48,349 bases of DNA from an uncultured Flavobacteriales bacterium. Lineage in GTDB: Bacteria > Bacteroidota > Bacteroidia > Palsa-965. The stretch is from positions 1 to 48,349 of the forward strand of contig CAIQQJ010000111.1 of NCBI GenBank assembly GCA_903873905.1, written 5' to 3'. A model generated the notes under the pieces. That model was given only the letters and a program-made list of their open reading frames with translations, was not told the DNA's origin and did not search any database. Both the position numbers and the translations under genes were made by a program. Numbering within the stretch: the stretch's first letter is position 1; each line of letters begins with the position of its first letter. Positions 1,898 to 47,904 of the stretch are shown here, piece by piece.

Positions 1898-2014
1898 GTT
1901 TGGAGTGTTTAGTTCGGAGTGTTTAGGTCGGAGAATATTTTGAAAATGCTCGAGGAGAAATCTTCGGGTATTTTTTTTGAAAATTCAAAATTTAGAATTC
2001 AAAATTCAAAATTC
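1895..2014. repeat. Word-repeat tracts between accA and the next gene
   Basis: The gap between the two convergent genes is largely word repeats. GGAGTGTTTAG occurs at 1902-1912 and 1916-1926 (14-bp period, same words as the alaS leader). Five 7-bp units of AAAATTC type run 1980-2014, three of them perfect. The second word recurs at 39860-39901. The tract starts at the accA stop and ends 5 bp from the stop codon of the minus-strand gene. Confidence 0.7.
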
Positions 2015-3308: not shown

Positions 3309-3330
3309 GAAACATAAATATACGATCTAA

Positions 3331-3470
3331 TTACCAATTACCGGATTACTGATTACCAATGAAAAAAAAAGAAAATGAGTTACATAAATTGAATCCAAAA
3401 ACCAGTAATTGGTAATTGGTAATTGGTAATCTGGCAGTATAGTGGTCCCTTCGGGATAATTGGTAATTTT
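3331..3470. repeat. Inverted TTACCAATTA / TAATTGG word arms with fragment of dispersed element
   Basis: The left arm (3331-3360) carries TTACCAATTA words. The right arm (3406-3426) carries three perfect TAATTGG units in the opposite sense, with another copy at about 3459-3469. Between the right-arm pieces, 3440-3457 (AGTGGTCCCTTCGGGATA) closely matches 43404-43421, part of the dispersed element there. The tract fills the gap between two divergent genes. Confidence 0.65.
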
Positions 3471-25514: not shown

Positions 25515-25533
25515 GGGACTGGGGGCTGGGGAC
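25515..25533. repeat. Left inverted arm flanking a small membrane gene
   Basis: GGGACTGGGGGCTGGGGAC, 5 bp after the preceding stop codon. It matches the reverse complement of 25880-25898 at 17 of 19 positions. The two arms enclose exactly one gene. Confidence 0.65.
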
Positions 25534-25584
25534 AAGTGACACCGGTGTTAATAGGAAATTGAGATTTTAAAAATTATTATCGAA

Positions 25585-25857: not shown

Positions 25858-25879
25858 CTCTTCATTTCCACAGTCTCAA

Positions 25880-25898
25880 GTCCCCAGTCCCAAGTCCC
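25880..25898. repeat. Right inverted arm flanking a small membrane gene
   Basis: GTCCCCAGTCCCAAGTCCC, 22 bp after the small gene's stop and 7 bp before the -7 box of the permease gene. It is the inverted partner of 25515-25533. Confidence 0.65.
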
Positions 25899-39457: not shown

Positions 39458-39856
39458 ATGAATAAAACGAACCAACGCATCGCCCATATCGCTCTTGTAG
39501 TTCACGATTACGACGAAGCAATAAAATTCTACACTGAAAAATTAAACTTCACACTCCTTGAAGACACCGCTTTAAGTGAAACAAAACGTTGGGTAATTGT
39601 AAAACCAAAAGGTGATGGAGCATGTTCTCTATTGCTTGCAAAAGCTGCGAATGACGAACAAAAAAGCCGTGTTGGAAATCAAACTGGGGGAAGAGTTTTT
39701 CTGTTTTTATATACAAACGATTTCCAAAAAGATTATCACAGAATGCTTGCTGCTGAAATCAAATTTGTAAGGCAACCTGCAGAGGAGGCACATGGAACGG
39801 TTGCTGTTTTCGAAGATTTGTATGGCAATTTGTGGGATTTGATTCAACCTAAATAA
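39458..39856 (+). CDS. VOC-family (glyoxalase-like) protein
   Basis: 132 residues from ATG 39458; a TTG/ATG-like extension to 39431 is not needed. Two beta-alpha-beta-beta-beta halves: IAHIALVVHDYDEAIKFYTE opens with the first metal His, and GTVAVFEDLYGNLWDLIQP closes with the family's typical end and acidic metal ligand. Substrates of such single-domain proteins range from lactoylglutathione to antibiotics, and none can be assigned. Confidence 0.88.
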   Translation: MNKTNQRIAHIALVVHDYDEAIKFYTEKLNFTLLEDTALSETKRWVIVKPKGDGACSLLLAKAANDEQKSRVGNQTGGRVFLFLYTNDFQKDYHRMLAAEIKFVRQPAEEAHGTVAVFEDLYGNLWDLIQPK

Positions 39857-39859
39857 TAC

Positions 39860-39901
39860 AAAATCCAAAACTCAAAATTCAAAATTCAAAATTCAAAATT
39901 C
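39860..39901 (+). repeat. Six 7-bp tandem units (AAAATTC)
   Basis: Units 39860-39866 and 39867-39873 each have one change; four perfect AAAATTC units follow at 39874-39901. The tract begins 3 bp after the VOC stop and ends 17 bp before the next ATG. The same word is repeated at 1980-2014. Confidence 0.8.
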
Positions 39902-39918
39902 GGAATTACCTTTACCCT

Positions 39919-40743: not shown

Positions 40744-40760
40744 TACGCTGAAATTTAATC

Positions 40761-40832
40761 AGCACATCAGCACATCAGCACATCAGCACATCAGCACATC
40801 AGCACATCAGCACATCAGCACATCAGCACATC
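40761..40832 (+). repeat. Nine perfect tandem copies of AGCACATC
   Basis: 72 bp of an 8-bp unit with no variation, ending 5 bp before the mqnA ATG. It occupies the position of the ribosome-binding region. Confidence 0.95.
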
Positions 40833-43945: not shown

Positions 43946-43949
43946 TTTT

Positions 43950-44048
43950 GTTCGGAGTTGGGAGTGCTGAGTTCGGAGTAATTCTTGGAGTGGAATTAGA
44001 AGTGAAATTAATCGGATTTCTCCGAACTCACAACTCTGAACTCAGAAC
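43950..44048. repeat. 29-bp inverted repeat filling the M23-MerR gap
   Basis: Left arm 43950-43978 and the reverse complement of right arm 44020-44048 agree at 24 of 29 positions; both are made of GTTCGGAG/GAGTTC words. The right arm ends in the M23 stop codon (44048-44050) and the left arm is 5 bp from the MerR start. The loop is ~41 bases. Confidence 0.8.
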
Positions 44049-45019
44049 TAATCAAAGGCTGGTGATGATTGTGAGGACAGCTCAATGAGTTTTGCGTATT
44101 GCGCTGGTGTGAGATCGTTGTAATAATAATTGATTGGATTCATGAGTTCTCCGTTTTTGTGAACTTCATAATGACAATGCGGTGCTGTTGACAAACCTGT
44201 TGAACCAACATAGCCGATTAATTGTCCGCGTTTCACTTTTTGTCCTTCGACAACAACGTATTTCAACATATGACCATACAAGGTTTCATAACCATAACCA
44301 TGATTAATGACAACGTGATTACCATACCCTTGTGATTTAGCATCGGCAACCGTAACCGTGCCATCACCCGTTGCATAAATTTCTGTACCCTGTGGTGCCG
44401 CGAAATCCATTCCGGGATGAAATTCTTGTGTTTTGTAAATGGGATGAATCCGCCATCCGAATCCACCTGGTGCATGTCGAAGATCTCTATTGGAAACTGG
44501 CATGATGGCGGGAATGGAAGCAAGTAATTCCTTTTTCCCATTCGCCATTTTCACTACATCATCAAATGATTTCGATTGAATATAAATTTCTTTAGTAAGA
44601 CGATCCACCTTTTGAGTAAGAGAAACCATCAATTGCGAATTATTGTAGCCCTCCAAGGCGCTATATCGGTCAACACCACCAAATCCTGCTTGTCTGATAT
44701 CGCTTGGAATGGGTTCTGCTTCGAAAATAACGCGATAAATATTGTCATCCCTATTGGCCATATCCAACATCACCTGACTCAGGTTATCAATTTTCCGATT
44801 AACAAGATCATATTGCAATTGCATTTTTTCAAGTTCCCTGCGCAATTGTTTTTCTTTCGGAGAATCAAAATATTTAAAGGCAATGACAACGGAAATGACT
44901 CCAATGACAGAAGCCGTACCAAGAAAAGAAATGACACGAAAAAGACGCGTACGAAATGGCGTAACGGCCTTTTCGTAACTGAGTGTCTTCGTATTAAATT
45001 TATACCTGATTTTCGACAT
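44048..45019 (-). CDS. M23-family (LytM/NlpD-type) peptidoglycan metallopeptidase
   Basis: 323 residues. One membrane helix (~28-48, ISFLGTASVIGVISVVIAF), then a coiled coil (~55-95, KEKQLRRELEKMQLQYDLVN). The C-terminal M23 domain runs ~190-300 with zinc ligands in EFHPGMDFAAPQGTEI (HxxxD) and PHCHYEVHKNG (HxH), plus TLYGHMLKY. All zinc ligands and the second His are present, so it is likely catalytic. It cleaves peptide bridges in the periplasm or acts as an amidase activator. It pairs with the MerR gene on one strand and is divergent from alaS. Confidence 0.93.
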   Translation of the reverse strand: MSKIRYKFNTKTLSYEKAVTPFRTRLFRVISFLGTASVIGVISVVIAFKYFDSPKEKQLRRELEKMQLQYDLVNRKIDNLSQVMLDMANRDDNIYRVIFEAEPIPSDIRQAGFGGVDRYSALEGYNNSQLMVSLTQKVDRLTKEIYIQSKSFDDVVKMANGKKELLASIPAIMPVSNRDLRHAPGGFGWRIHPIYKTQEFHPGMDFAAPQGTEIYATGDGTVTVADAKSQGYGNHVVINHGYGYETLYGHMLKYVVVEGQKVKRGQLIGYVGSTGLSTAPHCHYEVHKNGELMNPINYYYNDLTPAQYAKLIELSSQSSPAFD

Positions 45020-45073: not shown

Positions 45074-45081
45074 TAACTTTG
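45074..45081 (+). promoter_or_regulatory. -7 promoter box of alaS
   Basis: TAACTTTG followed by CAACC fits TAnnTTTG. It implies a leader of about 170 nt, unusually long here, which carries the two hairpin units at 45101-45256. Confidence 0.55.
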
Positions 45082-45100
45082 CAACCGCTTATTAGTTGGG

Positions 45101-45256
45101 AGTTCGGAGTTTTTAGTTCGGTGATTATTGCCGAAAAGTCTCCGAACTAAACACTTCGAACTAAGCACTAAAAATAAGTTAAGAGTTCGTGGTATGAAGT
45201 TCGGAGATTCTCTGAATAAATTTCTCCGAACTAAACACTTCGAACTAAGCACTAAA
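45101..45256 (+). repeat. Two tandem hairpin units in the alaS leader
   Basis: An exact 34-bp sequence occurs twice, at 45139-45172 and 45223-45256. Each copy is preceded by its inverted arm: AGTTCGGAG at 45101-45109 pairs with CTCCGAACT at 45140-45148, and 45198-45206 pairs with 45224-45232. The second unit ends 2 bp before the alaS ATG. Confidence 0.85.
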
Positions 45257-45258
45257 CA

Positions 45259-47904
45259 ATGAATTCAAAAACAGTCCGCCGCACATTTTTAGAATTTTTC
45301 AAATCCAAAGGACATGAGATTGTACCCTCTGCTCCTATGGTCATTAAAAACGATCCCACACTCATGTTCACCAATGCGGGCATGAATCAATTCAAAGAAT
45401 GGTTTTTGGGTAATGCTCCCGCAAAATGGCCACGCGTTGCCGATACACAAAAATGTTTACGCGTTTCTGGAAAACACAATGACTTGGAAGAAGTTGGCGT
45501 GGATACGTATCACCACACGATGTTTGAAATGTTGGGCAATTGGAGCTTCGGAGATTATTTCAAAAAAGAAGCAATCGATTGGAGTTGGGAATTATTGACT
45601 GAAGTTTACGAATTACCGAAAGACAGATTATATGTTACGGTTTTCGAAGGTTACGATAAAGAAGGTTTGGCATTCGATCAGGAAGCATATGATTGCTGGA
45701 AAAAATATGTTCCAGAAGAAAGAATCATTCGTGGAAATAAAAAAGATAATTTCTGGGAGATGGGCGACACTGGTCCTTGTGGTCCTTGTACAGAAATTCA
45801 TGTTGATTGTCGTGATGCGGAGGAAAGAAAAAAAACAAGTGGCGCAACATTAGTCAACAATGATCATCCACAAGTAATTGAAATCTGGAACAATGTGTTC
45901 ATGGAATTCAATCGCAAAGCCGATGGTTCACTGGAAAAACTTCCTGCACAACATGTGGATACAGGAATGGGATTTGAGCGTTTGGTTCGTGTTTTGCAAA
46001 ATAAACAATCGAATTACGAAACGGATATTTTCCTTCCGCTCATTCGTAAAATCGAAACTATTTCTGGCCTTCGCTATTATGAGGGAAAAGCAGGAAGAAG
46101 TGAAGAAGTGATCAACATTGCCATGCGCGTGATTTCAGATCACATTCGTGCCATTTCATTTTCAATTGCTGATGGACAATTACCATCCAACACAGGAGCC
46201 GGTTATGTCATTCGCAGAATTCTTCGTCGTGCAATCCGTTATGGCTATCAATCACTCGGATTGAGAGAGCCTTTCATGTATCAATTGGTGGAAGTTCTTG
46301 CCAATCAAATGGGCGACTCATTCCCAGAATTGCTTACTCAAAAAACATTGATTGAAAAAGTAATTCAGGAAGAGGAAATTTCTTTTTACCGCACACTCGA
46401 TTCCGGTTTGAAAAAAATCGATGCCGTTTGTATTGAAATATTAACAAAACAAAAAGGCGTAAAAACCATTGACGGAAAAATTGTTTTCGAATTGTACGAC
46501 ACTTTCGGATTTCCACTTGATTTGACAGCACTTATTGCAAAAGGATACGAACTTTCCATTGACGAAGAAGGATTTAAAGTTGAATTGGAAAAACAAAAAA
46601 ATCGTTCACGCGCAGCAACTGCAATTGATACGGATGATTGGGTTGAAATTGTAAAAGATGGATCAACAACGTTTATCGGTTATGATCAAGTTGAAGCTGA
46701 TTCTAAAATTCTTCGCTATCGCCGTGTGAAGGCAAAAGGAAAAGAATTGTACCAATTGGTTTTGGATGTCACACCATTTTATGCAGAGAGCGGCGGACAA
46801 GTTGGTGATACTGGTGAACTAGAATCTCCTCATGAAAAAGTGAAAATATTCGACACCAAAAAAGAAAATGGTGTAATCATGCACATGACAGATCGTTTGC
46901 CGGAAGACATTACACGCACATTCAAGGCGCGTGTCAATCTTGCAAAAAGGAAAGCGACTGAAAACAATCATAGTGCAACACATTTGTTGCATGCAGCACT
47001 TCGTCAAGTTTTAGGAACGCATGTTGAACAAAAGGGTTCATTGGTAAATGATGAACATTTGCGTTTCGACTTTTCCCATTATTCAAAAATCACCGATGAG
47101 GATTTGGCGAAAATTGAAAAAATCGTCAATGAGAAAATCCGGGAAAACATTCATTCAAATATTCGTGAAATGGCAATTGATGATGCACGAAATCTTGGTG
47201 CGATGGCTTTGTTCGGTGAAAAATATGGTGATGTGGTTCGTGTGGTAACATTTGACAAGGATTATTCCATTGAATTGTGCGGTGGAACACACGTTCCTGC
47301 AACAGGACAAATTGGTTTATTCAAAATCACAAGTGAAAGTGCGATTGCTGCTGGCATTCGTCGTATCGAAGCAATCACTTCTGTTTCCGCTGAGAAATTC
47401 ATTAATGATCAATTGTATACGCTTGCGCAAATCAAGGAATTGCTCAAAGCGCCGAAAGACATTCTCAAAAGTGTTCACCAATTGATGGATGAAAAATCCG
47501 GCTTGGAAAAACAATTGGAAATGTTGCTGAATGAAAAAGTGAAAATGATCAAATCGGAATTGATTGGAAAAGTCAAGCAAGTGAATGGCATGAATTTCAT
47601 TTCCGCAAAAATCGAATTGAATTCTTCTGATGCAATCAAGAATCTTGCTTTTGGCCTTGATGAAAAAGTGGAAAATCTTTTCCTCGTTCTCGGTGCTGAA
47701 GTGAATGAAAAAGCTTCTCTCACTGTGATGATTTCAAAAAACCTCGTGAAGGAAAAAAACCTTGACGCCGGAAAAATCATTCGTGAACTCGCAAAAGAAA
47801 TCCAAGGTGGTGGCGGCGGACAACCGTTCTTCGCAACATCAGGAGGTACGAATGTTGCTGGAATTGAGAAGGCTTTGTCAAAGGCGAAAGATTTTCTGAA
47901 TTGA
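45259..47904 (+). CDS. alaS: Alanine-tRNA ligase
   Basis: 881 residues, full length. AlaRS charges tRNA-Ala and edits mischarged Ser and Gly. The class II core starts [20 protein letters not shown], then [15 protein letters not shown] and [20 protein letters not shown]. The editing domain has [20 protein letters not shown] (HxxxH) and the zinc Cys/His of [15 protein letters not shown]. The C-Ala domain ends [16 protein letters not shown], the glycine-rich tRNA elbow contact. It is a single gene with a long structured leader. Confidence 0.98.

Follow-up and report, generated by a model that had tools for sequence, protein, structure and literature searches.

In the genome of an uncultured Flavobacteriales bacterium, the alanyl-tRNA synthetase gene alaS is preceded by a leader in which an exact 34-bp sequence occurs twice, and the question raised by this locus is whether the doubled hairpin serves alaS or belongs to a kind of DNA with no particular connection to this gene. 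An earlier note on the same DNA proposed that the leader could hide the start site or act as a translational control of the synthetase. We analyzed the surrounding stretch of 48,349 nucleotides (the window), the genome that contains it, relatives in the genus and family, and genome contigs of other phyla. The features of the window are collected in Table 1.

Table 1. Positions of the alaS leader elements and of other arms of the same family in the window
Feature	Position	Strand	Remarks
Single family arm	1904..1934	-	Follows the stop codon of gene 941-1897; R1 E 1.3e-7
Other family member, left arm	43947..43979	-	Between a MerR-like gene and an M23 peptidase gene
Other family member, right arm	44019..44051	+	R1 match; same MerR-like/M23 spacer
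-7 box TAACTTTG of alaS	45074..45081	+	Read directly
Unit 1, left arm	45092..45124	-	G-rich on + strand; R1 match 45092-45123, E 5.0e-7
Unit 1, loop	45125..45138		Unlike the loops of other sites
Unit 1, right arm	45139..45172	+	First exact 34-bp copy; R1 E 8.7e-9
Unit 2, left arm	45175..45207	-	Degenerate; R1 match 45176-45207, E 0.0014
Unit 2, loop	45208..45222		
Unit 2, right arm	45223..45256	+	Second exact 34-bp copy; R1 E 8.7e-9
alaS, alanyl-tRNA synthetase	45259..47904	+	881 aa; orthologues in 6/6 other genus genomes

Layout and predicted fold of the alaS leader

The two exact copies of TCTCCGAACTAAACACTTCGAACTAAGCACTAAA that the earlier note had reported are present, with starts 84 nt (12 x 7) apart, and the second does end 2 nt short of the start codon; by simple arithmetic, an exact 34-mer occurring twice in about 170 nt far exceeds chance. 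The inverted partner described 5' of each copy was also found, with 45089-45129 facing 45134-45174 in the first unit (76% complementary) and 45184-45207 facing 45223-45246 in the second (79%), and the site holds two pairs of G-rich and C-rich arms. The start of the element lies nearer to 45089 or 45092 than to 45101, where the assigned interval began.

The description of a tandemly duplicated hairpin holds for the right arms, which are identical over 34 nt, but not for the left halves and loops, which are poorly alike between the units. We therefore rejected a plain tandem duplication of the whole hairpin unit. The predicted RNA fold of the leader is strong, at -63.4 kcal/mol compared with -36.0 +/- 4.1 for shuffled sequences (z -6.7; none of 200 shuffles as good). 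Its minimum-energy form is predicted to be nested, an outer stem of left arm 1 and right arm 2 enclosing an inner stem of right arm 1 and left arm 2, and the alternative consists of two separate hairpins with predicted energies of -34.9 and -26.4 kcal/mol.

Comparison with covariance models revealed no T-box or other Rfam RNA at gathering score in the window, in agreement with the initial view that the leader is unlike a T-box. Sub-threshold matches only appeared at E <= 10, and nearly all of them were to eukaryotic hairpin RNAs (microRNA and snoRNA models). In addition, no intrinsic terminator (a GC stem with a T run) was called at 45089-45256.

The gene alaS was found in nine of 11 family relatives, six of the nine belonging to the same genus. 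The assignment of the -7 box gains support from G001, G003 and G005, in which TAACTTTG likewise stands ahead of alaS, and a TAnnTTTG box precedes the gene in G002, G004, G008 and G011; we take the box of the window to be a promoter of this Bacteroidota type. The leader is long, as had been stated, with 177 nt from box to ATG compared with 17-87 nt in these seven relatives with a recognisable box. The alaS leaders of all nine relatives lack the hairpin units, an absence that the earlier note had itself named as telling against its proposal and that holds here at the level of sequence. In G001, the closest relative, the leader ends in GAATTAAGCACAAAAAC before the ATG, which resembles GAACTAAGCACTAAACA of the window, and judging from this likeness part of the alaS right arm may be an old remnant.

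A dispersed family of arms at gene borders

When the leader was used as a query against its own genome (G000; 3.93 Mb in 181 contigs), 29 matches were obtained, the window included. A sequence model (R1) built from 43 arms then identified 84 arms in this genome, which we grouped into 55 sites. The arm consensus derived from the 43 arms, TCTCCGAACTAAACACTCCGAACTAA, also given as TCTCCGAACTAAACACTCCGAACTAAACACTAA, has ACT at each 7 nt, and the heptad words of individual arms include ACTCCGA, ACTAAAC and others. The same model gave one weak match in G001, eight weak matches in G003 and none in the other four of the six further genomes of the genus. As expected for growing arrays, several family sites are located at contig ends, and tandem right arms occur at three other sites (three at C20, four at C115, and two at C139). 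The period is not confined to places chosen for this family: among strongly periodic intergenic windows in unselected stretches (periods 4-15), 18 of 21 have period 7 or 14.

The family follows a strict layout. At all 20 sites with one arm per strand, the G-rich arm lies 5' and the C-rich arm 3', and 50 of the 55 sites fall outside ORFs of at least 80 aa. The neighbours of the 46 sites flanked on both sides, counted as ORFs and not as curated genes, are co-directional in 22 cases, divergent in 18 and convergent in six. Of the 64 gene borders no more than 45 bp from an arm, 57 have the C-rich strand running towards the gene, comprising 34 of 37 starts and 23 of 27 stops. A -7 box separates the arm from the ATG at 20 of these 37 starts, mostly continuing straight out of the arm, and the arm abuts the ATG at other start borders, for example those of atpG (named from its translation) and alaS. 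The odd case is alaS, with a divergent neighbour gene, yet with arms downstream of its -7 box. Because of this placement the arms should be transcribed, and the array would then appear in the RNA as a hairpin.

We compared the paired arms of each site for signs that their pairing is maintained. The identity of arms from the same site (23.05 of 33) was no higher than that obtained with permuted partners (23.46 +/- 0.35; 22 pairs, P 0.89), and 22 of 140 deviations in left arms were matched by the site's own right arm, where 24.0 were expected. No compensatory changes between paired arms were detected in these 22 pairs, and the likeness of 16 loops between sites was no greater than that of shuffled loops. 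As far as can be read from sequence, the pairing of arms carries no sign of selection. The pattern of arms and loops fits arms that track a common consensus singly, or old copies that decay independently; decay of old copies is disfavoured because the loops are unrelated.

The window contains heptads of other words as well. G-rich GGGACTG heptads at 25515-25535 and inverted C-rich AGTCCCA heptads at 25867-25898 bracket an ORF of about 90 aa that reads from its translation like a membrane protein, so that a whole gene forms the 'loop' of this pair. Another inverted pair, AATTACC / GGTAATT, lies between two genes at 3329-3360 and 3400-3434, and AATTCAA arrays at 1980-2014 and 39855-39908 have no clear partner. 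There is also a perfect array of the 8-mer ATCAGCAC at 40758-40832 (9.4 copies), with an inverted partner just upstream.

Possible recurrence in relatives and occurrence in other phyla

The gene borders of G003 that are orthologous to array sites often carry inverted 7-nt arrays of other words. Examples, with genes named from translations, are GTTATTG/CAATAAC next to uvrB, AGTTGGG/CTCCCAA at another border and, in the spacer of era and der, a long pair that is nearly perfect. When the G003 orthologues of array sites from both batches were scored for period 7, 10 of 37 reached 16 or more out of 24, versus two of 108 random G003 borders (Fisher P 1.9e-5), with a measure that was chosen after the inverted-repeat result had been seen. 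Period 15 also differed (three of 37 versus none of 108), and other periods gave no clear difference. Inverted-repeat scores of at least 12 showed no enrichment in G003 (two of 24 versus 15 of 120 controls) in the 24 of 31 sites scored, most of them with a single arm. Altogether, these comparisons are suggestive of array positions that recur at orthologous G003 borders with their words changed.

Few or no arrays were found in the sampled stretches of G001, G004, G005 and G006, and G002 and G003 have inverted words of their own. Long inverted heptad pairs of other words were noticed in both of the latter, namely GAGACNN in G002 (L276, 12325-12683) and GTAATCTGTATTCCGTAAAAATCCGTAAT in G003 (L260, 18382-18553). 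The spacer between the MerR-like and M23 genes, which in the window holds the array at 43947-44051, is occupied in G001 by a CapA-like gene (named from its translation), and the CapA-like gene adjoins the M23 gene in G003 as well. The heptad pair of this array may mark the scar of a deletion.

The pattern extends well beyond the family. In genome contigs, CTCCGAACTNNNNACTCCGAACTNNNNACT occurs in at least 115 stretches, while simple arithmetic gives about 0.03 expected matches in 257 Gb for its 22 fixed bases. The 80 matches listed come from Cyanobacteria, several proteobacterial and nitrospiral groups, Verrucomicrobia, Blastocatellia, Omnitrophota, Bacteroidota and others. Within this set of at least 115 stretches, 95 clusters, not all of them independent, had 200 bp available on both sides for a AGTTCGGAG partner; 24 had the partner on the upstream side alone, two on the downstream side alone, one on both sides and 68 on neither (P 1e-5). 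Since the partners are biased to the upstream side across phyla, the polarity rule is not particular to this species; the CTCCGAA heptad word and its polarity are common to unrelated phyla. The arm pattern was also seen in ten stretches of viral contigs, one contig having it three times.

Known repeat systems and competing explanations

Cyanobacteria contain short tandemly repeated repetitive (STRR) sequences, which are heptanucleotide tandem arrays between genes, and the alaS family has such arrays between genes in common with them. The closest described kind, from the portions of the paper compared here, is the heptamer found at gene borders by Rehm et al. 2015 (PMC4692102), of which the alaS family is a variant without G-quadruplex runs. 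According to these portions, the heptamers GGGAATC and GGGGA(C/T)T of Xanthomonas and Nostoc lie at gene borders, form convergent inverted pairs (70 and 75 cases) and are rare between divergent genes (7-8% in Xanthomonas), and their role is left open. Both families consist of 7-nt units that are intergenic and adjoin genes of all classes, have a G-rich strand that reads away from the closest ORF irrespective of that ORF's direction, form convergent inverted pairs, and overlap stop codons. The Xanthomonas and Nostoc repeats occupy the same places in a relative with length and sequence changed, a trait that the alaS family may share judging from the period-7 score in G003, though not from the inverted-repeat score. 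In contrast to those quadruplex-capable repeats, the arm consensus of the alaS family has GG at most and never GGG, which excludes G-quadruplexes as its cause, and its sites are often located between divergent genes (18 of 46). Set against the same portions of that work, the alaS array also differs in standing in a leader and abutting an ATG.

The TAACTGA heptamers of Beggiatoaceae, Cyanobacteria and some Bacteroidetes, for which a role in translation was proposed in the sections of MacGregor 2015 (PMC4679880) considered, likewise form arrays just upstream of start codons with a patchy distribution over phyla. Their word is different, however, and they are direct repeats (one indirect), whereas the alaS family has paired inverted arms on both sides of a spacer; the word TAACTGA as direct repeats is not in the arm consensus. 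Searches of the open-access literature brought up neither the CTCCGAA family nor any account of words that turn over while the gene borders carrying them stay fixed.

We think it probable that the alaS leader carries two neighbouring copies of an intergenic repeat amplified in this species, that is, self-spreading or slippage-made spacer DNA. Slippage by 7 nt, or template switching, would lengthen and duplicate the arrays; we infer this process because the alaS right arms are identical and the left halves are not, and because three other sites have two to four tandem right arms. A copying process within the genome would homogenise the words, and arrays would be tolerated in a spacer up to the first base under selection, whether this belongs to a start codon, a stop codon or a -7 box. 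The best reading of the hairpin's effect on alaS would then be that it is incidental. A mild influence of the array on mRNA stability or translation is possible, as a side effect and not as the reason for its presence. Four points count against this account. The polarity is too regular for plain slippage, at 20 of 20 sites here and 24 versus two across phyla in the set of clusters above; positions in G003 seem to recur (10 of 37 versus two of 108), which speaks against a purely neutral view; slippage alone cannot put one word at 55 places, for which no carrier was found; and the likeness at the end of the G001 leader may mean that part of the right arm is old.

In a more general proposal, which we regard as unlikely but give some weight, an undescribed and very widespread bacterial process would generate 7-nt phased arrays from gene borders inward, with fixed polarity and a limited vocabulary common to unrelated phyla; the words would be replaced from species to species while positions persist, and the alaS leader would be one of its products. 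If true, this proposal would require either an enzyme of its own or a pathway of replication or repair with strand polarity, together with copying of words within the genome.

The same regularities could reflect protein binding, with each arm selected separately as a border site of a nucleoid or boundary factor or of a regulator with a 7-bp step. Arms that each track one consensus independently of the partner, the strict polarity and border position, the recurrence at orthologous G003 borders, and the sharing of word and polarity by many phyla are all consistent with such sites. Words nevertheless vary by species, with several in one genome, and the sampled stretches of G001, G004, G005 and G006 have few or no arrays despite the same core genes, and we hold this explanation to be rather improbable.

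Dedicated control of alaS, in which the doubled hairpin would respond to a signal by masking or freeing the ribosome site or by attenuating transcription, draws on the place of the array downstream of the -7 box and 2 nt from the ATG, on the strong fold with its two possible competing forms, and on arms that stay on the transcribed side of the box despite the divergent neighbour. The evidence from the rest of the genome and from relatives runs the other way. As alaS is one of 55 dispersed sites beside unrelated genes, the units are absent from nine relatives, and the arms show no pair-keeping changes, the case for alaS-specific control could not be sustained. Hiding of the start site fares no better, with an ATG that is mostly unpaired (0.77-0.85) in the predicted fold, and no Rfam regulator was recognized. 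The doubled hairpin is probably not a dedicated switch for alaS, and we judge such control to be distinctly unlikely.

We give little credence to the idea of a REP element or MITE that a Y1 transposase (RAYT) mobilises in trans. In the parts of PMC3733652 used for comparison, which concern REP elements and RAYT transposases, the GTAG- and CGTC-tagged REP elements are short, dispersed intergenic palindromes with species-specific numbers, as are the inverted arms of the alaS family, and three Y1_Tnp genes are present in its own genome. Yet none of the 16 Y1_Tnp loci in six genus genomes has an arm beside it, the consensus contains no GTAG or CGTC tag, the arms are in 7-nt phase, and loops are unrelated between sites, whereas a transposed unit would bring its loop. 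We consider it very improbable that the arms act between genes to terminate transcription or to stabilise mRNA 3' ends. The orientation is as expected at 23 of 27 nearby stop borders, where many arms overlap the stop codon. Against this, 18 of the 46 flanked sites have divergent neighbours, the arm precedes the -7 box and is hence outside that gene's mRNA at 20 start borders, and the alaS units sit in a 5' leader without a terminator-like call.

As a control of alaS, then, the doubled hairpin is ordinary, and its wider meaning lies with the repeat family to which its arms belong. The quadruplex explanation for the Xanthomonas and Nostoc repeats is weakened, as the same layout occurs here without GGG runs. 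Two questions can now be separated and tested, one concerning the persistence of positions and polarity and the other the spread of words through a genome. Since the pattern recurs in many phyla, a mechanism behind it would account for much intergenic DNA.
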